From Streptomyces atratus (GTDB lineage Bacteria; Actinomycetota; Actinomycetes; Streptomycetales; Streptomycetaceae): 64,000 nucleotides of DNA. Numbering within the stretch: the stretch's first letter is position 1; each line of letters starts with the position of its first letter. Of the stretch, positions 38,827 to 48,199 are shown in pieces. The DNA lies in assembly GCF_014648655.1 (NCBI RefSeq), contig NZ_BMRN01000020.1:62001-126000 (forward strand). The letters run 5' to 3'. Made by a program: the position numbers and the translations under genes. The notes under the pieces are model-generated. The model saw nothing but the letters and a program-made list of their open reading frames with translations. It made no database searches and was not told where the DNA came from.

Positions 38827-39303
38827 GTGGAGAAGGAAGCAGGGCACGAGGCCGCAGCGATGCGACTCGACGACCCGTGGGACGACGCGCTGGCCTCCGG
38901 ATGGGGCGAGTCGGATGGTGCAGGGAGCTTTGCTCCCGCCGGACCACCCGGGCACGCTGACCCGCAGCGCGGCCACAGTGCGGCCGGCATCTATCTGGAG
39001 GTGCAGCGCAGCGAGGCCTTCCAGGAAGTGCGCCGTCGGTACCGGCGGTTCGTCATCCCCGCCACCCTCGCCTTCCTCGTCTGGTATCTCGCCTACGTCG
39101 TCGCCGCGATCACCGCACCCGGGCTGATGGCCCGTCCGGTGGCCGGAGCGGTCAATGTCGCGATGGCCGCAGGGCTCGGGCAGTTCCTCACGACGTTTCT
39201 TCTCACCGGGGCATACGCACGTCACGCACGACTTCGCAGGGACCGGGCCGCACTCGATCTGCGCTGGGAGACACAGGAGATGACGCGGGGGATCGGGCGT
39301 TGA
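38827..39303 (+). CDS. DUF485 membrane protein, symporter partner
   Basis: 158-residue protein. An acidic hydrophilic N-terminus of ~60 residues precedes two membrane segments (FVIPATLAFLVWYLAYVVAA and GLGQFLTTFLLTGAYA). The conserved entry EVQRSEAFQEVRRRYRRFV is typical of DUF485/YjcH proteins encoded with acetate-type symporters. GTG 38827 is chosen for GGGGAG upstream. Its stop overlaps the symporter start by four bases, so the two are translationally coupled and probably interact. Confidence 0.85.
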   Translation: MEKEAGHEAAAMRLDDPWDDALASGWGESDGAGSFAPAGPPGHADPQRGHSAAGIYLEVQRSEAFQEVRRRYRRFVIPATLAFLVWYLAYVVAAITAPGLMARPVAGAVNVAMAAGLGQFLTTFLLTGAYARHARLRRDRAALDLRWETQEMTRGIGR

Positions 39304-40892
39304 ACGGGAACCACCAGACCCTGGCGCTCCTGCTGTTCAGCGCCTTCATCGCAGTGACGCTTGCCATCACCACCTGGGTGAGCCGTAACCGGCACGGCTC
39401 GGCAGAGGAGTTCTATGCCGGCGGCCGGTTGTTCTCCCCCATGGAGAACGGTTTCGCCATCGCCGGCGACTACATGTCGGCCGCGTCCTTCCTCGGCATC
39501 TCCGGCCTGATCGCCCTCTTCGGCTACGACGGCATGCTTTACTCGGTCGGGTTCCTCGTCGCCTGGCTCATCGTCCTGCTCCTGGTCGCCGAACTGGTCC
39601 GCAACTGCGGCCGGTTCACACTCGCCGACGTGGTGGCGGCGCGGATGGCGGAGCGCCCGGTCCGGATCGCCGCCGGCACCTCGTCCGTCACTGTCTCCGT
39701 GCTCTATCTCGTCGCACAGATGGTGGGCGCGGGCAGCCTGATCGCGCTGCTTCTCGGCGGTACGAGCAGCGCTGCCCGTTCCTGGACCGTCATCGGTGTC
39801 GGGGCGCTCATGGTGATCTACGTATCGCTCGGCGGGATGCGCGCCACCACCTGGATCCAGATCGTCAAGGCCGTCCTGCTGATTGGGGGAGCGGTCGTGC
39901 TCACCGTGCTCGTCCTGGTCCACTTCCACGGCAACTTCAATGCCCTGCTCAACTCCGCCGCCGAACGGAGCGGGCATGGAAGCCGGTTCCTCTCGCCCGG
40001 CCTCCGGTACGGCGGATCCTGGACGGCACGGATCGACTTCATCAGCCTGGGCCTGGCCCTGGTACTCGGTACGGCGGGGCTGCCGCACATCCTGTCGAGG
40101 TTCTACACCGTGCCCACCGCCCGTGCGGCCCGCCGTTCGGTCGTCTGGTCCATCGGGCTCATCGGAAGCTTCTACCTGATGACGATCGTGCTCGGATTCG
40201 GGGCGGCGGCACTGGTCGGCTCGGCGGAGGTACGAGCGTCGAATTCCGGGGGGAACACAGCGGTTCCGCTGCTGGCCCTGGTGCTCGGCGGTGGCGAAGG
40301 ATCCACAGGGGGAACGATTCTGTTCGCCGTGGTCGCCGCCGTCGCCTTCGCGACCATCCTTGCCGTCGTCGCGGGGATCACCCTCGCCTCGTCCGCCTCT
40401 GTGGCCCATGACCTCTACGCCTCGCTCAGGCGTCCTGGTTCCAAGCAGTACAGGGAGGTCACCGTGGCCCGGGTCGCCGCAGCGGGGATCGGGATGGCCG
40501 CCATCGGGCTCGGTCTGGTCGCCCAGGATCTGAATGTGGCGTTCCTGGTGGGGCTCGCGTTCGCCGTCGCCGCTTCGGCCAACCTCCCCGTGCTGCTGTA
40601 CTCCCTGTTCTGGCGGAACTTCACCACCCGGGGAGCGGTCTGGTCGGTCTACGGCGGGCTGATCCCCGCCGTGCTGCTCGTGCTGCTCTCCCCGGTCGTC
40701 TCCGGCAGCCCCACCTCGCTCTTCCCCGGCGCCGACTTCCAGCTTTTCCCCCTGGAGAACCCCGGCCTGGTCTCCATTCCGCTGGGCTTCCTGGCCGGCT
40801 GGATCGGAACTGTCACGTCCACCGAGCCGCCCGACGCCGCCAAACATGCGGAGACCGAGGTCCGTGCGCTGACCGGGGCAGGGGCGGTGTAG
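39300..40892 (+). CDS. Sodium:solute symporter, ActP-like (acetate/monocarboxylate)
   Basis: 530-residue SSS-family transporter with about 13 membrane segments. Diagnostic features include SAEEFYAGGRLFSPMENGFA, then YMSAASFLGISGLIALFGYD, and the sodium-site region LGTAGLPHILSRFYTVPTA. These match the cation/acetate symporter branch. Substrate could be acetate, propionate, pyruvate or a similar monocarboxylate. TTG 39300 overlaps the DUF485 stop. It converges on a CitAB-like two-component pair and lies near two citrate synthases, which supports a carboxylate substrate. Confidence 0.88.
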   Translation: MNGNHQTLALLLFSAFIAVTLAITTWVSRNRHGSAEEFYAGGRLFSPMENGFAIAGDYMSAASFLGISGLIALFGYDGMLYSVGFLVAWLIVLLLVAELVRNCGRFTLADVVAARMAERPVRIAAGTSSVTVSVLYLVAQMVGAGSLIALLLGGTSSAARSWTVIGVGALMVIYVSLGGMRATTWIQIVKAVLLIGGAVVLTVLVLVHFHGNFNALLNSAAERSGHGSRFLSPGLRYGGSWTARIDFISLGLALVLGTAGLPHILSRFYTVPTARAARRSVVWSIGLIGSFYLMTIVLGFGAAALVGSAEVRASNSGGNTAVPLLALVLGGGEGSTGGTILFAVVAAVAFATILAVVAGITLASSASVAHDLYASLRRPGSKQYREVTVARVAAAGIGMAAIGLGLVAQDLNVAFLVGLAFAVAASANLPVLLYSLFWRNFTTRGAVWSVYGGLIPAVLLVLLSPVVSGSPTSLFPGADFQLFPLENPGLVSIPLGFLAGWIGTVTSTEPPDAAKHAETEVRALTGAGAV

Positions 40893-40923: not shown

Positions 40924-41607
40924 TCAGGCCTGCCTGCCGGTGGACCAGGTGTAGCGGTGTTCCGGGCGGCCCGTCTCGCCGTACCGCAGCGTCAGCCGCA
41001 CCCTGCCGGTCCTCTCCAGCAGCTTCAGATAGCGCTGGGCGGTCTGCCGGCTCATCCCGGCACTCTCCGCGATCTCCTGCGCGGAGAGTGGTCCTTCGGC
41101 GCTCCGGAGCGCTTGTTTGACCAGCTCCGCCGTGGTCGGTGAGTGGCCCTTGGGCAGGTCGGGTTCGCCCGCCGCCCACAGGGCGCCGAAGAGCCGGTCC
41201 ACCTCACCCTGCTCCGCCTCGCCGCCGCCTTCGAGGGTGTGGCGCAGAGTCGCATACGCCTCCAGCTTGGTACGCAACCCCGCGTAGGTGAACGGCTTCA
41301 CCAGGTACTGCAACGCGCCGTGTCGCATGGCCTCCTGGACGGTGGCGACGTCGCGCGCCGCCGTCACCATGATCACGTCGGTGTGGTGACCGAGCCTGCG
41401 CAGCTCACGCACCATCGTCAGACCGTTGCGTTCGGGCATGTAGTGGTCCAGCAGGACCAGGTCCACACGCTGTTCCTCGATCGTGGCCAGGGCTTCGGCG
41501 GCGGAGTGCGCCTGGGCGGCCACCCGGAATCCCGGCACCCTGGAGACATAGGCCGCATTGACCTTCGCGACCCGGATGTCGTCATCCACGACCAGGACTT
41601 CGATCAC
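40924..41607 (-). CDS. CitB/DctR-type response regulator
   Basis: 227-residue regulator of the DpiA/CitB/DcuR group. Receiver: VLVVDDDIRVAKVNAAYVSR, phosphoacceptor aspartate in DLVLLDHYMPERNGLT, and LVKPFTYAGLRTKLEAY. The C-terminal winged helix (SAQEIAESAGMSRQTAQRYL, then RTGRVRLTLRYGETGRPEH) is typical of citrate or C4-dicarboxylate responders. ATG 41607 overlaps the kinase stop by four bases. Likely targets are the adjacent symporter or citrate synthase genes, by inference only. Confidence 0.9.
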   Translation of the reverse strand: MIEVLVVDDDIRVAKVNAAYVSRVPGFRVAAQAHSAAEALATIEEQRVDLVLLDHYMPERNGLTMVRELRRLGHHTDVIMVTAARDVATVQEAMRHGALQYLVKPFTYAGLRTKLEAYATLRHTLEGGGEAEQGEVDRLFGALWAAGEPDLPKGHSPTTAELVKQALRSAEGPLSAQEIAESAGMSRQTAQRYLKLLERTGRVRLTLRYGETGRPEHRYTWSTGRQA

Positions 41608-43295
41608 TGAGCCTCTCCCACGATGCCGGTTTTCGGTTCGGCCATTTCCCGTTCAGTCATTTCAGGGTCCTGTATGTCCTGGACGGCCAAGGCTTCCGGC
41701 AGCACGACGGTGAACTCGGCGCCACCGTCCGCGGCCCCGTCGACAGTGACTCCGCCACCCTGCCGTTCCGCCAGCCGCCGCACCAGTGCAAGGCCCAGGC
41801 CGCGCTTGCCGTGCGCCGGGAGTGCCTTCGTCGACCAGCCCTCCGTGAAGATCGATTCGCGTTGCCCGGGCGGAACCCCGGGGCCGCTGTCGCGGACCCG
41901 CAGCACCACGGTACGGCCCTCGGCGTGCAGGCCCACCTCGATCAGGGCACCGTCCGCTCCGGCCGCAGCGTCCAGTGCGTTGTCCACGAGGTTGCCGACG
42001 ACGGTGACCAGCCCGCGAGGGTCCACCAGCCGGTCCGGTAGCAGGGTCCCGGGGGCCATGCGGAGCGCGACGCCGCGCTCCGCCGCAACCGTGGCCTTGC
42101 CGACCAGGAGCGCGGCCAGCAGTGGGTCGTGCACCTTCTCGGTGACCTGCTCGGCCGTTGCCCGGTGGACGCCGACGACCTCGGTGACGTACTCCATGGC
42201 GTCCTCGTGCATGTCCAGTTCCAGCAGCCCCAGGAGGGTGTGCATCCGGTTGGCGTGCTCGTGGTCCTGGGCCCGCAGCGCGTCGATCAGGCCACGGGTG
42301 GAGTCGAGCTCGCGGCCGAGATGTTCGAGTTCAGTGCGGTCGCGGAGGGTGGCGACGGCGCCGCCGTCGTCGGTCGGCATCCGGTTGGCGAGCAGGACCC
42401 GGGTGCCCTGCACCGTCAGCAGATCGTCGCCGATCACCCGGCCGGCCAGTACATCGGCGGTCCGCCCCTCGCCGAGCACGGCGTCGAGCGGGCGGCCCGC
42501 GGCATCGGGGCCGAGCCCGAGCAGCCGCTGCGCCTCGTCGTTCAGGAGCCGGATGCGGCCGGTCCGGTCGAGTGCCACGACCCCTTCCCGGATGCCGTGC
42601 AGCATCGCCTCGCGCTCCGTCAGCAGCGCGGAGATATCGGAGAAGGCGAGGTCATGGGTCTGCCGCTGGAGGCGCCGGGAGATCAGACAGGCGGCCAGCG
42701 CCCCGACAGCGAGCGCCCCGCCCGCGTAGGCGAACAGCCCTGGAATCGCCGCGAGGAGCCGGGCGCGGACACTGTCGTACGCGATCCCGACGGAGACCGC
42801 GCCCACGATGTGGTCCGTCCCGTCGCGCAGAGGTACCTTCCCGCGGGCCGAGCGGCCGAGCGTGCCGCTGTCGATCTCCATGACGTTCCGGCCGGCGAGC
42901 GCGTCGCTCGGGTCGGTGGAGACGACCTTGCCGATCTGGTCGGTATCGGTGTGCGACCAGCGCACCCCGCGCCGGTCCATGACGACGATGTACTCGGCGC
43001 CGGTGGCGCGTCTGATCCGCTCGGACGCGGTCTGTACGGGTCCGGTGGGGGCCGGGGCCGTGGAGAGCAGTGACTCCGTGATCTGCGGCTGGGCCGCCGT
43101 GCTCTGCGCGATGGCGAGTGCACGGCGCATCGCCTGATCGTCGAGCTGTGCGCTGAGGGGTGCCAGAAAGAGTCCGGTGGCGAGTACGGTGACACCGGTG
43201 GCGATGGCCAGCTGCATCAGCAGGACCTGGGAGAAGACCCGCTGCGGCCAGCCGAGTCGGCGTGCTCTCCTGGCGGTGGGCGGTGAAGCGCTCAT
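41604..43295 (-). CDS. CitA/DcuS-type sensor histidine kinase
   Basis: 563-residue membrane kinase. A first membrane segment (~22-45) and a second (~187-207) bracket an extracytoplasmic PAS-like (sCache) sensor. This carries the IVVMDRRGVRWSHTDTDQIG and YIVVMD strands characteristic of CitA/DcuS, which bind citrate or dicarboxylates. A cytoplasmic PAS (REGVVALDRTGRIRLLNDEA) follows. The phosphoacceptor region is DHEHANRMHTLLGLLELDM, and the ATP domain has VGNLVDNALDAAAG and GLALVRRLAERQGG. It is coupled to the response regulator by a four-base overlap. Start ATG 43295. Confidence 0.9.
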   Translation of the reverse strand: MSASPPTARRARRLGWPQRVFSQVLLMQLAIATGVTVLATGLFLAPLSAQLDDQAMRRALAIAQSTAAQPQITESLLSTAPAPTGPVQTASERIRRATGAEYIVVMDRRGVRWSHTDTDQIGKVVSTDPSDALAGRNVMEIDSGTLGRSARGKVPLRDGTDHIVGAVSVGIAYDSVRARLLAAIPGLFAYAGGALAVGALAACLISRRLQRQTHDLAFSDISALLTEREAMLHGIREGVVALDRTGRIRLLNDEAQRLLGLGPDAAGRPLDAVLGEGRTADVLAGRVIGDDLLTVQGTRVLLANRMPTDDGGAVATLRDRTELEHLGRELDSTRGLIDALRAQDHEHANRMHTLLGLLELDMHEDAMEYVTEVVGVHRATAEQVTEKVHDPLLAALLVGKATVAAERGVALRMAPGTLLPDRLVDPRGLVTVVGNLVDNALDAAAGADGALIEVGLHAEGRTVVLRVRDSGPGVPPGQRESIFTEGWSTKALPAHGKRGLGLALVRRLAERQGGGVTVDGAADGGAEFTVVLPEALAVQDIQDPEMTEREMAEPKTGIVGEAQ

Positions 43296-43383: not shown

Positions 43384-43408
43384 CTTGCGCTTCTTGCGTA
43401 ATCTTGCG
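43384..43408. promoter_or_regulatory. Three CTTGCG direct repeats before the LacI gene
   Basis: CTTGCG occurs at 43384, 43393 and 43403, spaced 9 and 10 bases, about one helical turn. Streptomyces LacI-type regulators often bind repeated CTTGC-type elements, so this may be the autoregulatory operator. It overlaps the only in-frame upstream start codons. Confidence 0.4.
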
Positions 43409-44427
43409 CGCAGGACGCGACGACTTGCTCAGGTGGCGCAGAAGGTGGGAGTCAGCGAGGCCACGGTCGGCCGGGTGCTCAACGGCAAGCCCGGCGTCCC
43501 GGACGCAACCCGGAAGGCCGTCCTCTCCGCGCTCGACGTCCTCGGTTACGAGCGCCCCACCCGGTTGCGCGGTGAGCGGGCCCGGCTGGTCGGCCTGGTC
43601 CTGCCCGAGCTGCAGAACCCGATCTTCCCCGCCTTTGCCGAGGTCGTCGGCGGCGCGCTCGCCCAGCAGGGACTCACCCCGGTGCTGTGTACCCGGACCA
43701 AGGGTGGCGTCCGAGAGTCCGACTATGTCGAGCTGCTCCTTCAGCAGCAGGTGTCGGGCGTGGTTTTCGCAGGTGGGCTCTACCACCGGGCCGACGCCCG
43801 CACGACCACTACAAGGTGCTCGCCGACCGCAGGATCCCGGTCGTCCTGATCAATGCGGCCATCGATCATCTCGGCTTCCCCGGCATCTCCTGCGACGACT
43901 CCGTTGCCGTGGAACAGGCCTGGCGCCATCTTGTCTCGCTCGGCCACGAGCGCATCGGCCTGGTGCTCGGCCCCTCCGACCACGCCCCCTCGCAGCGCAA
44001 ACTGGCCGCTGCCCGCGCGATCGCCGCGGAGTCGGGCACGACCGTGCCGGACGAGTGGGTGGCCCGGGCCATGTTCTCGCTGGAGGGCGGGCAGGCCGCC
44101 GCCCTGCGCCTGCTCGGCCGGGGCGTCACGGGCATCATCTGCGCCGGCGATCCGCTCGCGCTCGGAGCTGTGCCCGGCGCGCACCGTCGAGGCCTTTCGG
44201 TCCCTGCCGATGTCTCGGTCGTCGGTTACGACGAATCGGCCTTCATGAACTGCACCGAGCCTCCGCTGACCACCGTCCGACAGCCGATCGAGGCCATGGG
44301 TCGCGCCGCCGTCGAGCTGCTCTGTGTGCAGATCGGGGGGCGTACCGTGCCGTCCGACGAGATGCTCTTCGAGCCGGAACCGGTGGTGCGCGGCTCCACC
44401 GTCCGGCCGCCGCGCACCTCTTGCTGA
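43385..44427 (+). pseudogene. LacI-family regulator, frameshifted
   Basis: A complete LacI/GalR-type repressor can be read only by changing frame. The first part gives the helix-turn-helix (LAQVAQKVGVSEATVGRVLN) and the start of the sugar-binding domain, to YHRADA. The second, in the next frame, resumes at PHDHYKVLADRRIPVVLINA and runs to RPPRTSC, with VGYDESAFMNCTEPPLTTVR. Adding one C to the CCC at 43797-43799 joins them seamlessly. Where a LacI start is expected (about 43412) the codon is AGG. The only upstream starts are TTG 43385 and 43394, inside the CTTGCG repeats. It is either a recent pseudogene or a sequencing error in a C run. Its partner genes are probably the nearby carboxylate genes. 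Confidence 0.88.
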
Positions 44428-44456: not shown

Positions 44457-45773
44457 CTAGCGCAGCGGCTCACTCGCGGGGGTGGGCAGCGGCTGAGGGG
44501 GGCGGGGGCCTCCGTACTGGCCGCTGGGGCGCATACGCAGCGGCCGTTCCCCGTACTCCTCCAGTGCATGCGCGATCCAGCCCGCCGTGCGCGACACCGC
44601 GAACACTGTCTCGCCTGCCTCCGCGGCCATGTCCGAGGAGACCGAGAGCACGGCGAGCGCCAGGTCGACATTGGCGTGCAGGGGCGCGTGGCGGGCGGTC
44701 GTGGTGACCACGTCGCGCGCTGCGGCGAGCGCGGGGGCCGCCTGTGGGACGTCTGCGAGCAGGGCGAACAGCGTCTGCGCCCGCGGGTCCTCGGAGGTGT
44801 ACAGGCGGTGGCCGAGGCCCGGGACCCTGCGTCCCGTACGGAGATGATCCGCGACCACCGGTACCGCGCTGCCCCGCTCCAGGACCTCGGTCAGCATTCG
44901 GTGCGCCAGACCGCTCGCGGCCCCGTGCAGCGGGCCCTCCAGGACTCCCAGGCCCGCGGAGACCACCGCGTACGGATGGGCGTGGGCGGATGCGGCGACC
45001 CTGGCGGCCAGTGTCGACGCCGCGAGATCGTGGTCGATCAGCAGGGCGAGGGCGGTGTCCAGCGCGGCGACCGACGGCTCGTCGGCCGGCCGGGCAGTGA
45101 GCTTCGGCCACAGCCGCCGTGCCAGCCCGGCCCCGCTCCTGTCCGCCCTCTCTTCAAGTCCGTCACCCGTCGAAGAAGTGTCCGAGGCCAGGGGTAGCGC
45201 TCCGACCAGGGTTGGAATCAGGCTCCGTGCACTGGCGAGCACTGCCTCGCGTGAGAGGTCGAAGCGGAGCGGGTCGGCGGTCGCCGCGGCGATCACGGCC
45301 ACCCGTAGCCGGTCCGTCGAGCCGCTGTGCGCGGGCAGCGCGTCGACCGCCCGGCGTGCCGCAGTCAGCGCCTCAGCGGGTGCCGTGAAGCGGATGCCGG
45401 GCCGCAGGTCGCCGGTCCAGAGCCATTCGGCGACCTCCTCGTAGGCGTACTGCCTGGCCAGTTCGGTCGCGTCGACGCCACGGAAGTAGTAGCGGTCGCT
45501 CTCGATCAGGGTGATGCCGGTACGGAAGACCAGATCACCGGTGGCAGCCGAGGACTCCCGGCGGCCCGTGCGCCGGGCCAGTGCATCGACCTCCGCGACG
45601 TCGAACGTGCTGCCGCGTCCGCCGGGAGCGCGCCTGCTGCTCAGCTGGCCCCGGCTGACATAGGCGTACACCGTCTCGGGCTTCACGCCGAGGCGCTCAG
45701 CCGTCTCCCGGGTGCTGAGCCGCTGCGGGGCCGTCGCGCCGGGGCCGTCACCGGGTGCTGCTTGATCCTTCAT
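44457..45773 (-). CDS. Citrate synthase-like protein with N-terminal helix-turn-helix
   Basis: 438 residues. The N-terminal excisionase/MerR-like helix-turn-helix (RLSTRETAERLGVKPETVYA and the wing GRGSTFDVAEVDALARR, residues ~20-75) is fused to a citrate synthase domain. The catalytic triad appears intact: His in GPLHG (~281), His in GLGHRLYTSEDPRA (~322) and Asp in HANVDLALAVL (~367). It should condense oxaloacetate with acetyl- or propionyl-CoA, and may also bind DNA. ATG 45773 is chosen; ATG 45791 would add six residues. It diverges from a second citrate synthase across three AT-rich palindromes that could be its own operators. It ends 29 bases from the broken LacI gene. Confidence 0.87.
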   Translation of the reverse strand: MKDQAAPGDGPGATAPQRLSTRETAERLGVKPETVYAYVSRGQLSSRRAPGGRGSTFDVAEVDALARRTGRRESSAATGDLVFRTGITLIESDRYYFRGVDATELARQYAYEEVAEWLWTGDLRPGIRFTAPAEALTAARRAVDALPAHSGSTDRLRVAVIAAATADPLRFDLSREAVLASARSLIPTLVGALPLASDTSSTGDGLEERADRSGAGLARRLWPKLTARPADEPSVAALDTALALLIDHDLAASTLAARVAASAHAHPYAVVSAGLGVLEGPLHGAASGLAHRMLTEVLERGSAVPVVADHLRTGRRVPGLGHRLYTSEDPRAQTLFALLADVPQAAPALAAARDVVTTTARHAPLHANVDLALAVLSVSSDMAAEAGETVFAVSRTAGWIAHALEEYGERPLRMRPSGQYGGPRPPQPLPTPASEPLR

Positions 45774-45792
45774 GTCGCCAACCGTATCCATA

Positions 45793-45852
45793 TTGATGCA
45801 ATCAACATTGACAGGATTGAAGTCAATCATAGATGGTCGAATCAATATTGAT
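45793..45852. promoter_or_regulatory. Three palindromic operators over the divergent citrate synthase promoter
   Basis: Palindromes built on the same half-site: TTGATGCAATCAA (45793-45805), GATTGAAGTCAATC (45815-45828) and ATCAATATTGAT (45841-45852). Their centres are about 22 and 25 bases apart. They surround a promoter for the plus-strand gene, TTGACA (45808-45813), 16 bases, TAGATG (45830-45835). One site lies between -35 and -10, and another at the expected start point. The stretch is strikingly AT-rich for this genome. Confidence 0.7.
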
Positions 45853-45883
45853 GAGATCCATCGGGACGCTCACAGAGGAAGAG

Positions 45884-47044
45884 ATGCCGACCATGACCAG
45901 CGGAACACCGCTCGACGTACCCCGAGGGCTCGCCGGAGTCGTCGTCACCGACACGGCCCTCGGCGATGTCCGCGGGCGCGAGGGCTTCTACCACTACCGG
46001 CAGTACTCGGCGATCGAACTGGCACAGACCCGCAGTTTCGAGGACGTCTGGTACCTGATGTTCGAGGGCGCGCTGCCCGATGCCGCAGCCCGTGCCGAAT
46101 TCGCCGCCCGCACCGCCGCACTGCGCCGACTGCCCGCGGAGGTACGTGAGGCCCTGCCCGCCATAGCCCGCGCGGGAGCCGTCTCCGGACCCCTGGCCGG
46201 CCTGCGCACCGCCCTCTCGCTCCTCGGTGCCTCGGCCGGCTTCCGGCCGGTGTACGACATCGACGCCGACCGGCGCCGCAGCGACGCCCTGGCCGCCTGT
46301 GCCGCAGTCCCCACCGTGCTTACGGCCCTGCACCGGCTCGGCCAGGGCCTCGAACCGGTCGAGCCGCGCGACGATCTGCCCTATGCGGCCAACTACCTCT
46401 ACATGCTCACCGGCTCCATACCGGACGCCGCACGCGTCAGGGCCGTGGAGCAGTACCTGATCTCCACCGTCGACCACGGCTTCAACGCCTCGACCTTCAC
46501 CGGCCGCGTCGTCGCGTCCACCGGTGCCGACGTCGCGGCTTGTCTGGTGGCGGCTGTCGGCGCGCTCTCCGGACCGCTGCACGGCGGAGCGCCCAGCCGC
46601 GCCCTCGACACCCTGGACGCCATCGGCACCCCCGACCGCATCGACGGCTGGATCCGCGAACGGGTGCTCGCGGGCGAGCGGATCATGGGCTTCGGCCACC
46701 CTGTGTACCGCACCGAGGACCCGCGCTCACGCATGCTGCGCGGAATCGCCCAGGGCTTCGGCGGCCCGCTCGTCGACTTCGCCGTCGAGGTCGAACGGCA
46801 GGTCGAGGCGATCCTCGCCGAGCTCAAGCCGGGCCGTGAGCTGCACACCAACGTGGAGTTCTACGCCGGAGTCGTCATGGAGCTGTGCGGGCTGCCGCGT
46901 GAGATGTTCACGCCGACGTTCTGCGCGGCGCGGGTGGTCGGCTGGAGCGCCAATATCCTGGAGCAGGCGGAGGACTCGAAGATCATCCGTCCGGCGGCCC
47001 GATACGTCGGTACGCCCCCGCCGCAGCCGGTCCCGGCGCCCTGA
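45884..47044 (+). CDS. Citrate synthase (CitA-like second synthase)
   Basis: 386-residue citrate or 2-methylcitrate synthase. Conserved catalytic blocks: GPLHGGAPSRALDTLD (~228), MGFGHPVYRTEDPRSR (~266) and HTNVEFYAGVVMELCGLP (~320). The third catalytic position is Glu (NVEF) instead of the usual Asp (NVDF); I believe this occurs in one bacterial subfamily but have not checked. C-terminal GWSANILEQAEDSKIIRPAA is the CoA/oxaloacetate arginine region. ATG 45884 is chosen for GAGGAAGAG upstream; an extension to 45833 would place coding sequence in the operator region. It diverges from the helix-turn-helix synthase. A CobW gene follows after 21 bases. Confidence 0.9.
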   Translation: MPTMTSGTPLDVPRGLAGVVVTDTALGDVRGREGFYHYRQYSAIELAQTRSFEDVWYLMFEGALPDAAARAEFAARTAALRRLPAEVREALPAIARAGAVSGPLAGLRTALSLLGASAGFRPVYDIDADRRRSDALAACAAVPTVLTALHRLGQGLEPVEPRDDLPYAANYLYMLTGSIPDAARVRAVEQYLISTVDHGFNASTFTGRVVASTGADVAACLVAAVGALSGPLHGGAPSRALDTLDAIGTPDRIDGWIRERVLAGERIMGFGHPVYRTEDPRSRMLRGIAQGFGGPLVDFAVEVERQVEAILAELKPGRELHTNVEFYAGVVMELCGLPREMFTPTFCAARVVGWSANILEQAEDSKIIRPAARYVGTPPPQPVPAP

Positions 47045-47065: not shown

Positions 47066-48199
47066 TTGAACCCGTCGTCCCCGCCCCGCAAGCAGCAGAT
47101 CCCGGTCATCGTCCTTGCGGGGTTTCTGGGATCCGGCAAGACGACACTGCTCAACCACCTCCTCCGTAACCGTGCGGGAAACCGGATCGGCGTGATCGTC
47201 AACGACTTCGGCTCCATCGAGATCGACGCCATGACGGTCTCGGGGCAGGTCGGCTCGACGGTTTCGCTGGGCAGCGGATGCCTGTGCTGCGCGGTCGACG
47301 TGAGCGAACTCGACACCTTCCTGGAGACGCTGACCCGGCCCGCCGCCCGCCTCGACGTGATCGTCATCGAGGCCAGCGGACTCGCGGAGCCGCAGGAGCT
47401 CGTGCGCATGCTTCTGGCCAGCGACAATCCGCACATCGTGTACGGGGGACTCGTGGAGGTCGTCGATGCCGCAGAGTTCGACGCCGGCCGGGAGCGCCAT
47501 CCGGAGATCGACCGCCACCTCGCTGTCGCCGATCTCGTCGTGCTCAACAAGACCGACCGGGTCGGGAGCGAGGAACAGGCCCGTATCCGGGACGTCATCG
47601 CTTCGGCAGGTGCCCCGGCCGGCGACGCGGCGGCGGGCGGCAGCGCGGCCGCCGTCATCTGCGCCACGTACGGACGCATCGACCCCCAGCTGCTCTTCGA
47701 TCCGGCGCTGCGGCCGGACGGTGAGGAGAAGGCGCGCCAGCTCACTTTCGAGGATCTGCTCCTGGCGGAGCGGGCCGAGGATGAGGCGGGCGTCGGACAT
47801 GGCCACCATCTGCATGCCGCGTACGAGAGCGTGTCCTTCACCGCGGACGTCCCCATGAACCCCCGCCGATTGATGGAGTTTCTCGACTCCAGGCCGCAGG
47901 GTCTCTACCGGATCAAGGGGTTTGTCGACTTCGGCGTGGGCGACCGCGGCAACAAGTACGTCCTGCACGCGGTCGGCAGGTTCCTGCGGTTCGCCCCGCA
48001 GCCGTGGACCCGCGACGAACCGCGCCTCACGCAGCTGGTGCTGATCGGCTCAGGCATCGATCCGGAGCAGCTGCACAAGGAGCTGGCCGACTGCCGCGAG
48101 AGCGCCACCCCGACGCCTGAGATGACGCAGGACGCCGCACATGAACGAAGCATGTGGGGCGTCCTGCGGTACGTGCAACAGCCCGACGACGACGCGTAG
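47066..48199 (+). CDS. CobW/G3E-family GTPase (metal chaperone type)
   Basis: 377-residue GTP-dependent metallochaperone-like protein. Walker A LAGFLGSGKTTLLNHLL near residue 16; the metal-binding CxCC motif in GSGCLCCAVDVSELD near 70; Walker B VIVIEASGLAEPQEL; and the guanine-specificity motif VVLNKTDRVG near 165. The C-terminal CobW_C domain includes RLMEFLDSRPQGLYRIKGFV. A His-containing loop (GVGHGHHLH) could add metal ligands. TTG 47066 follows GAGGAAGG. It is close behind the citrate synthase and probably cotranscribed. Whether it serves zinc, cobalt or another metal is unknown. Confidence 0.88.
   Translation: MNPSSPPRKQQIPVIVLAGFLGSGKTTLLNHLLRNRAGNRIGVIVNDFGSIEIDAMTVSGQVGSTVSLGSGCLCCAVDVSELDTFLETLTRPAARLDVIVIEASGLAEPQELVRMLLASDNPHIVYGGLVEVVDAAEFDAGRERHPEIDRHLAVADLVVLNKTDRVGSEEQARIRDVIASAGAPAGDAAAGGSAAAVICATYGRIDPQLLFDPALRPDGEEKARQLTFEDLLLAERAEDEAGVGHGHHLHAAYESVSFTADVPMNPRRLMEFLDSRPQGLYRIKGFVDFGVGDRGNKYVLHAVGRFLRFAPQPWTRDEPRLTQLVLIGSGIDPEQLHKELADCRESATPTPEMTQDAAHERSMWGVLRYVQQPDDDA

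Follow-up and report, generated by a model that had tools for sequence, protein, structure and literature searches.

A citrate synthase-like protein with a helix-turn-helix domain and its predicted operator: a probable one-component regulator of a divergent citrate synthase gene in Streptomyces

In a 64-kb stretch of Streptomyces DNA, referred to below as the window, a gene was found for a protein, HTH-CS, in which a winged helix-turn-helix domain is fused to a citrate synthase domain. We consider it probable (roughly 0.72) that HTH-CS is a one-component regulator which, with a synthase fold as its sensor, reads a TCAAY/RTTGA operator and most likely represses the divergent gene for a second citrate synthase, CS2. 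The best supported elements are the HTH-CS family, its predicted operator and the co-occurrence of both; DNA binding, repression or activation, the ligand and the remaining catalysis of HTH-CS are what we infer. HTH-CS is very probably the factor reading these half-sites. Since it travels with a matching motif in two large bacterial groups, the family very probably represents an undescribed gene switch that reads a central metabolite.

The HTH-CS gene (44460–45773, minus strand; stop codon 44457–44459) encodes 438 amino acids with a winged helix-turn-helix of the BldC/MerR type. An earlier sequence-only reading of this DNA had placed its start codon at 45773 and the CS2 start at 45884, both correctly, and M1 of HTH-CS was invariant in a 34-row alignment. 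The fusion proposed by that reading was confirmed by profile search. HTH_17 (PF12728) matched residues 19–68 (45570–45719, minus strand; recognition helix region KPETVYAYVSRG) with an E value of 4e-7 and 30.6 bits against the Pfam cut-off of 27, and Citrate_synt (PF00285) matched residues 81–416 (44526–45533, minus strand) with an E value of 7e-59 and 200 bits against the cut-off of 27. The model of the helix-turn-helix gave BldC–DNA (6ama) as the Foldseek top match (E 9e-4); the MerR and MerR_1 profiles stayed below their cut-offs, and the BldC family model scored only 20.4 against its own cut-off of 77. With a profile above cut-off and a winged-helix fold, the domain was assigned to the HTH_17/BldC-type winged helices, and it resembles the BldC/Xis-type winged helices of the MerR superfamily (6ama, 6amk, 4j2n) in predicted fold, closest solved structures and HTH_17 match. 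BldC is small, lacks a sensor domain and binds direct repeats; HTH-CS differs in its inverted half-sites and its citrate synthase domain. A helix region of the YAYVSRG type was conserved in HTH-CS across phyla.

The synthase part has the fold and the catalytic positions of citrate synthases (B. subtilis CitA 2c6x, 2p2w, and T. thermophilus 1iom). Alignment to solved synthases put H283, H322 and D370, which we take to play the catalytic roles, at these positions, and with His, His and Asp in place and a domain above cut-off the protein belongs to PF00285. Unlike citrate synthases, HTH-CS has an N-terminal DNA-binding domain, scores far below the cut-off of every NCBIfam synthase model listed, and stands apart in the tree, in which one 100/100 branch separated it from the 22 sampled plain synthases (one HTH-CS, L266, is carried there under the partner label). 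Residue columns were read from pairwise alignments, leaving out loci with alignments not spanning residues 30–405 and 8 ungrouped loci. H283, H322 and D370 were kept in 110 of 110 Streptomyces loci and in most others; L266 has lost the catalytic residues, and in six further non-Streptomyces loci H322 was substituted or fell in a gap, possibly through misalignment. R331 and R395, found in HTH-CS together with R415, were present in all 180 grouped loci including three without H283, as would be expected of a carboxylate sensor. The catalytic residues, nearly always kept, are not needed by a pure sensor, and this observation speaks against our preferred explanation. CS2 (45884–47044, plus strand), the divergent partner and presumed target, scored 336.7 bits against NF009005 (cut-off 332), and its motif LHTNVEF has Glu in place of the catalytic Asp, so that HTH-CS holds the more canonical triad. 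The HTH-CS proteins are annotated as citrate synthases.

The region between the two genes was confirmed to be an AT-rich island, with a GC content of 0.42–0.44 in 100-base windows and 0.64–0.81 in the other windows computed. The predicted operator O1, RTTGA-n5-TCAAYRTTGA, is composed of three half-sites (45792–45811, plus strand) and was found in 107 of 108 Streptomyces regions. The right half of its core palindrome TCAACATTGA (45802–45811) overlaps the −35 hexamer TTGACA of the CS2 promoter (45808–45813, plus strand); TCAAYRTTGAC was present in all 108 regions, and TTGACA within the core in 103. By consensus reading, a −10-like hexamer, TAGATG (TrGACA in most relatives), follows after a 16-bp spacer (45830–45835, plus strand). 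A second palindrome, GATTGAAGTCAATC, is located between the two hexamers, as claimed earlier (45815–45828), and a third, ATCAATATTGAT, downstream of the −10 (45841–45852). Classical MerR regulators have their operator in a long −35/−10 spacer; here the core lies on the −35 and the spacer measures 16 bp, so HTH-CS was not classed with them. The sequence AGAGGAAG (45874–45881, plus strand) looks, by eye, like the ribosome-binding site of CS2, and the gene for a CobW-family GTPase, 21 bp past CS2 (47066–48199, plus strand), probably forms one operon with it, judged from the spacing. Directly upstream of the HTH-CS start, the box ACCGTATCC (GGATACGGT on the HTH-CS strand; 45781–45789, minus strand), conserved as ACCGTA[TC] in 101 of 108 regions, is possibly the −10 of a leaderless HTH-CS transcript.

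Within the window, TCAANNTTGA occurred twice, both times in this intergenic region (0.14 expected; 1 of 100 shuffles equalled two), and RTTGA-n5-TCAAYRTTGA with at most two mismatches four times, all here (0.05 expected). The exact long pattern matched once in the 9.8-Mb genome, at the HTH-CS/CS2 intergenic region, and TCAANNTTGA was absent from the 4-kb loci of two further synthase genes in the genome. The three palindromes of the sequence-only reading are all real at this locus, but conservation as a unit held for the first, composite one only. Full forms of the second (ATTGAnnTCAAT) and of the third (TCAATATTGA) were each found in 4 of the 108 regions, and 22 had the second in the less strict form TTGA-n1/2-TCAA, whereas the half-sites at their positions, the right one of the second and the left one of the third, were conserved in 101 and 95 regions. 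Three equal operators were thus rejected for one composite operator plus half-sites. The 108 regions are distinct, L003 (L001's place) and duplicates being left out of the count; excluded from the locus set were L002 and L004, which are other synthases, and L029, in which CS2 is broken. The distance from the core to the −10 box was 18 bp in 98 of 99 Streptomyces regions; that to the HTH-CS start ranged from about 27 to 198 bp in no fixed phase. The exact long pattern was located near HTH-CS in 56 of the 62 fusion-bearing genomes of the genus, and four of the other six have TCAANNTTGA. Among genomes without the fusion, used as the negative control, 4 of 39 gave a pattern match, all with one sequence that is present also in this genome at C6:369236. 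In the class sample, G169 alone qualified as carrying a CS2 orthologue without HTH-CS, and its contig ends within CS2. Two genomes, G013 and G146, have lost CS2 and the operator, the exact pattern being absent elsewhere in both, and retain HTH-CS, which may thus have another role.

Outside Streptomyces, the motif stayed with the fusion. Among 62 other actinobacterial loci (all counted from L115–L141 and L207–L246), the TCAANNTTGA core was detected in 50, an inverted half-site pair at 5–6 bp in 50, and one or the other in 61; in 25 hand-picked representatives the core was present in 22 (0.04 expected from shuffles). Members of the family occur in Actinomycetes and on plasmids of alpha-, beta- and gammaproteobacteria. 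Among 12 promoter regions from Proteobacteria, 11 carried the TCAANNTTGA core (0.06 expected), the operon promoter being used for L256, L261 and L262 after the gene order had been seen. Where HTH-CS is the last gene of an operon, the motif was found at the operon promoter, and in L280 and L287 it can abut the HTH-CS start codon. The third half-site stands at 5, 6 or 9 bp depending on the group. On proteobacterial plasmids, the respaced motif occurred at HTH-CS cassettes in 13 of 13 places in the 12 records (11.5 Mb) that defined it, and in 10 of 12 places in 12 held-out records, chosen from 60 listed of 178. One of the held-out places revealed a second HTH-CS cassette, two were not at HTH-CS, and 3 of the 12 held-out HTH-CS loci had no exact motif. 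In genus g53, TCAANNTTGA was missing from 10 of 11 loci, with TCAAY-n1-RTTGA in nine instead, and no core was detected upstream of L266 or the paralogue L144. The motif remained at HTH-CS next to an HMGL-type enzyme instead of CS2 in four of the 62 actinobacterial loci (L229, L235, L237, L239), as well as in 2-hydroxyacid dehydrogenase operons and with CoA transferases. As the motif is kept where CS2 is absent or replaced, it follows the fusion whatever the neighbouring gene, and a CS2 promoter element unrelated to the fusion was rejected. The co-occurrence of palindrome and fused domain, proposed at the outset as a check, was thereby observed in Streptomyces, in 61 of 62 other actinobacterial loci and, often without CS2, in a second phylum.

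In the mechanism that we propose, the citrate synthase fold would serve for dimer formation and effector binding, and the paired winged helices of the dimer would read TCAAY|RTTGA, helped by the third half-site at group-specific spacing. As the Streptomyces operator overlaps the −35 of CS2, HTH-CS on O1 would most likely block RNA polymerase at this promoter. A ligand in the pocket, which may be oxaloacetate, a related C4 or 2-hydroxy acid, citrate or an acyl-CoA, would alter synthase closure, upon which HTH-CS would leave the DNA. The original proposal, that the fusion represses both its own and its neighbour's gene, is thus supported in part. Self-repression is the weaker half in Streptomyces, since the operator keeps a fixed phase to the CS2 promoter and not to the HTH-CS start, and the CS2-less G013 and G146 have no operator.

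An operator on the −35 is compatible with activation, too. HTH-CS could bind there as a ligand-switched activator of the divergent gene, in a class II-like arrangement with the outer palindrome centred near −45. Activators are common among divergently encoded regulators, the outer palindrome (its position reckoned by hand) lies just upstream of the −35, and the −10-like box departs from consensus. We regard activation as rather unlikely, because the core overlaps a perfect TTGACA, further half-sites occur within the spacer and around the start region, and the motif abutting the start codon in L280 and L287 takes a repressor-like position. A different owner of the conserved block is suggested by work in S. 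coelicolor, in which a probe from the sco5831–sco5832 intergenic region carrying the site TTGACTTAACTGTCCA was shifted by MtrA, and expression of the two genes was raised at late times in the mtrA mutant (PMC12323332). Judged from the gene pair, the shared intergenic region and the matching site, sco5831–sco5832 (citA3–citA4) is very probably the same locus. That paper treats both products as citrate synthases, and the parts of it at hand mention neither a DNA-binding domain of sco5831 nor an operator. By analogy only (PMC12323332, Table 1), the matching stretch here is at 45830–45845 on the minus strand, overlapping the −10 and the third half-site. In 99 of 108 Streptomyces regions TrGACAGT or a close variant was present; the block is imperfect in the window. 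The block might then belong to MtrA, or to GlnR, for which similar sites are claimed, HTH-CS being only an enzyme with an idle DNA-binding domain. This we find improbable, as the MtrA-like stretch lies downstream of O1 and leaves TCAAYRTTGA unexplained, Proteobacteria have this core upstream of HTH-CS too, and a global regulator would have many such sites, whereas this genome has a single exact match to O1. With MtrA reported to bind the probably orthologous region and to lower both genes, control would be layered. The product of a nearby regulator gene of the LacI family (43385–44427) was rejected as the reader and has next to no likelihood: its reading frame is broken within the window, most of the gene is missing at this place in L034, whose HTH-CS shares 97% identity, and the L036 and L037 loci gave no nucleotide match to it, the operator persisting in all three.

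Whether HTH-CS remains an enzyme bears on the nature of its signal. It could be both a repressor and a functional citrate (or 2-methylcitrate) synthase, in effect a trigger enzyme acting as its own repressor in two phyla, with occupancy or turnover setting its hold on the operator. The near-constant catalytic residues, a triad more canonical than that of CS2, and the retention of HTH-CS in two genomes without CS2 or operator speak for this possibility, which the sub-cut-off synthase scores and the separate tree branch make doubtful. Were it true, the supply of oxaloacetate and acyl-CoA would be sensed directly, by way of the reaction with which the Krebs cycle begins, and a second synthase (of Si type or, in some lineages, an HMGL-type enzyme) would be swapped in when needed. 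An E. coli gltA mutant was complemented by Caulobacter CitB but not by CitC (CCNA_03758), of the next locus tag, which bears on HTH-CS only if CitC is one (PMC7083601). The CitA checkpoint of that organism is likewise a citrate synthase with a regulatory role besides catalysis; unlike HTH-CS it acts on CtrA, and the main text of the paper, as far as at hand, mentions no helix-turn-helix (PMC7083601).

In joining an enzyme fold to a domain that binds DNA and controls metabolic genes, HTH-CS would resemble several known regulators. PutA, BirA and NadR are active trigger enzymes, and the MocR/GntR proteins combine a winged helix with an aminotransferase fold. We know of no such enzyme-derived regulator built on citrate synthase, and no DNA-binding citrate synthase was found by title or abstract start in the open-licence PMC literature, a scope outside which most subscription papers fall. 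To our knowledge, little has been established about how bacteria sense oxaloacetate, acetyl-CoA or related acids at the entry to the Krebs cycle. In the HTH-CS family the fold of citrate synthase would be brought to DNA, and the predicted operator is so short and constant that a simple gel shift could test it. Because its members are annotated as citrate synthases, metabolic models may mistake a regulator for an enzyme; and because the motif singles out HTH-CS cassettes in whole plasmids, the regulons of this family should be predictable.

HTH-CS (44460–45773, minus strand, 438 residues) carries a BldC/MerR-type winged helix (HTH_17, residues 19–68, E 4e-7) joined to a citrate synthase domain (residues 81–416, E 7e-59). 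The proposal of the sequence-only reading that it is a helix-turn-helix fusion with an intact catalytic triad was borne out by the domain search and by retention of H283, H322 and D370 in 110/110 Streptomyces loci. In the AlphaFold2 model (mean pLDDT 78), the winged helix is formed by a strand at 18–20 and helices at 21–28, 32–40 and 59–68, and is followed by a loosely placed linker and a citrate synthase fold, the model giving a TM near 0.6 against solved synthases. When modelled alone (pLDDT 86), the helix-turn-helix was nearest to DNA-bound BldC (6ama) and phage Xis. The segment around YAYVSRG is conserved with minor changes from Streptomyces through Agrobacterium. Outside the 110 loci, H283 is missing in three HTH-CS (L266, L240 and L144) and D370 also in L266 and L240; six more loci show something other than His at the H322 position, which may reflect misalignment. 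R331 and R395 were present in 180/180 grouped loci, some of them near-identical, even where H283 is lost, which would fit continued binding of a carboxylate ligand. Phylogenetic analysis of 56 synthase domains placed the small set of 22 plain synthases and all HTH-CS, L266 included, on opposite sides of a branch with 100/100 support. One Streptomyces carries an additional, distantly related HTH-CS, L144 (4222–5481; G003:C22), with 31% identity, loss of the first catalytic His and a normal citrate synthase gene nearby; no operator-like array was found upstream of it, and from its sequence it looks like a pseudo-enzyme regulator.

The starts of HTH-CS and of the divergent plain citrate synthase CS2 (45884–47044, plus strand; cut-off of NF009005 reached) are separated by 110 bp with a GC content of ~0.43, against 0.64–0.81 in the surrounding region; gene order and domain search place a CobW-family GTPase gene 21 bp after CS2 on the same strand. 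Reading of the intergenic sequence gave TTGACA at 45808–45813 and, 16 bp beyond, TAGATG at 45830–45835, both on the plus strand. TCAANNTTGA occurs twice in the whole window, both times in this intergenic region (0.14 expected), and the operator RTTGA-n5-TCAAYRTTGA has a single exact match in the host genome (9.8 Mb in 243 contigs). CS2 resembles B. subtilis CitA (2c6x) in having Glu at the catalytic-Asp position of citrate synthases (LHTNVEF); NVEF is also found in the partner synthases of Agrobacterium and Ensifer. Near the pair, inspection by eye located a solute:sodium symporter (39300–40892, plus strand) and, on the minus strand, a response regulator (40924–41607) and a CitA/DcuS-like sensor kinase (41604–43295), possibly for dicarboxylate sensing. 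A LacI-family regulator gene (43385–44427, plus strand) is split between two reading frames, one ORF encoding the HTH half and the other the sugar-binding half, with an overlap at 43687–43849; the close relative L034 lacks most of this gene at the equivalent place.

Conservation was then compared among Streptomyces loci, of which 113 were fetched; the synthases lie back to back in 110, after removal of two other synthase genes and of L029 with its broken CS2. The core TCAAYRTTGAC was found in 108/108 distinct intergenic regions, the three-half-site form of the operator in 107 and TTGACA inside the core in 103. All three palindromes claimed from the sequence are present in the window (45792–45811, 45815–45828 and 45841–45852), and the second indeed falls inside the 16-bp gap between TTGACA and TAGATG, but the second and the third are full in only 4/108 regions each. 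The second is present in a looser form in 22/108, and a half-site is kept at its position in 101/108 and at that of the third in 95/108. The distance from the core end to a TrGACAGT-like box is 18 bp in 98/99 regions, whereas that from the operator to the HTH-CS start varies from about 27 to 198 bp, indicating that the operator is fixed to the CS2 promoter.

Co-occurrence of operator and fusion in Streptomyces, the check suggested in the sequence-only reading, was observed in a genus sample of 101 genomes. HTH-CS (E ≤ 1.1e-160) is present in 62, and in 56 of these an exact TTGA-n5-TCAAYRTTGA is found no more than 400 bp from the HTH-CS start. Four of the remaining six carry TCAANNTTGA with spacing or one base altered; in G032, CS2 is now on the same strand as HTH-CS and the pattern adjoins CS2, a decaying copy persisting at HTH-CS; the sixth, G013, retains neither CS2 nor the operator. 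Among 39 fusion-free genomes the pattern matched in four, every time as TTGATAATCTCAACGTTGA; the comparison with the fusion-bearing genomes gives a Fisher p of 1.5e-16, uncorrected for shared ancestry. This 19-bp match occurs in many actinomycetes, whether or not they carry HTH-CS (G002, G021, G051, G085 and others), including the host genome (G000:C6:369236–369254) on a contig without synthase match. In a class sample of 394 genomes, HTH-CS is present in 66, 43 of which carry the n5/6 pattern within 600 bp of it; fusion-bearing genomes hold 11 further pattern places elsewhere, and the pattern is found somewhere in 50/328 genomes without the fusion. CS2 (E ≤ 1e-100) is present in 57/394, and since the only one without the fusion (G169) lies at a contig end, CS2 alone is unusable as a control.

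The reverse control works: the link between motif and fusion survives replacement of CS2. In 62 non-Streptomyces actinobacterial loci, TCAANNTTGA was detected in 50, the RTTGA-n5/6-TCAAY pair in 50 and either in 61; in one genus (g53) the core is missing in 10/11 loci, mostly with TCAAY-n1-RTTGA instead. An HMGL-type enzyme, assigned by profile search in L235 and by eye in L229, L237 and L239, is divergent from HTH-CS in these four loci with the motif in between. The L235 partner belongs to PF00682, with homocitrate synthase as the best NCBIfam model, below its cut-off; the four partners, relatives of homocitrate and isopropylmalate synthases, are candidate Re-citrate or homocitrate synthases under the same operator. 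Plasmid-borne HTH-CS of Proteobacteria (~29–43% identical over the aligned part) is divergent from a citrate synthase in Chelatococcus, Agrobacterium fabrum C58, Ensifer and Pararhizobium, and elsewhere from 2-hydroxyacid dehydrogenase operons, transporters or CoA transferases. In two Burkholderia records and one Paraburkholderia record, HTH-CS closes an operon and the motif lies at the operon promoter, away from HTH-CS. Upstream, TCAANNTTGA was present in 22/25 hand-picked actinobacterial representatives and 11/12 proteobacterial promoters, where dinucleotide shuffles gave expectations of 0.04 and 0.06, respectively.

The pattern TCAANNTTGA-n9-TCAAY, drawn up from the first 12 proteobacterial records, gave 13 places in 11.5 Mb, spread over 11 records, and none when read backward in the same sequence. 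Every one of these falls at an HTH-CS cassette: 11 cassettes were already known, and two are second copies uncovered via the motif. Twelve further, previously unexamined records (10.2 Mb) gave 12 places in 11 records. Eight are immediately 5′ of HTH-CS (L280, L281, L282, L284, L285, L286, L287 and L289), one marks an additional HTH-CS cassette in Comamonas antarctica and one, by eye, lies at a Burkholderia-type operon promoter in Caballeronia; of the other two, one is unexplained and one, possibly marking a distant target, is 5′ of an ORF resembling an aromatic-ring hydroxylase (L294, NZ_CP049159.1 near 520099). L288 and L290 carry a one-mismatch motif at HTH-CS and L283 the core alone; the YAYVSRG-type segment is present in 12/12 held-out proteins.

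The locus seems prone to rearrangement in Streptomyces, CS2 being broken, moved, inverted or duplicated in L029/L134 (G095), L247–L249 (G353), L145 (G032) and L251 (G406), with a break near codon 40 twice (the HTH-CS-adjacent copy in G095 and G353, where fusion and operator persist). G353 has an extra CS2 ~20 kb from HTH-CS with an operator copy of its own, and G406 retains an intact operator, with CS2 reduced to fragments. G013 and G146 have lost CS2 together with the operator but retain HTH-CS with its own start box; no exact operator pattern was found elsewhere in these two genomes. The operator moving or disappearing with CS2 indicates that it serves CS2 first, and the retention of HTH-CS without it leaves room for catalysis or distant targets. 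Self-control, also proposed in the sequence-only reading, is likelier in Proteobacteria, because the motif can directly touch the HTH-CS start codon there (L280 and L287).

HTH-CS and its operator as one conserved unit is the best-supported part of the model. An HTH-CS dimer would place two winged helices on TCAAY|RTTGA, the additional half-site would tighten its hold, and RNA polymerase would be excluded from the CS2 −35; a ligand in the synthase pocket would weaken the grip on DNA. Since the core extends over the −35 and more half-sites lie downstream, repression is the likelier mode, and activation of CS2 by HTH-CS the less likely alternative. From gene order, names and a matching site, sco5831 and sco5832 of S. 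coelicolor are probably orthologues of the HTH-CS/CS2 pair. MtrA is reported to bind a probe from this S. coelicolor region, and both genes are reported to be more highly expressed at late times when MtrA is missing (PMC12323332); the site in the probe corresponds to the sequence over the −10 here. MtrA would thus add a second layer of control. The SCO5831 protein is reported as more abundant under ample phosphate (PMC9739823, PMC8981147), and its gene is listed in an expression table (PMC7324645).

In Caulobacter, CitB is reported to complement E. coli gltA and CitC not to, the two having consecutive locus tags (PMC7083601); CitC may be an HTH-CS. Databases annotate HTH-CS proteins as citrate synthase or citrate synthase family protein, and a search of titles and abstract openings in the open-licence PMC literature turned up no description of a citrate synthase that binds DNA. 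Proteins that combine an enzyme fold with a DNA-binding domain are already known from PutA, NadR, BirA and MocR, so HTH-CS is placed within that kind as a new family with a predicted operator.
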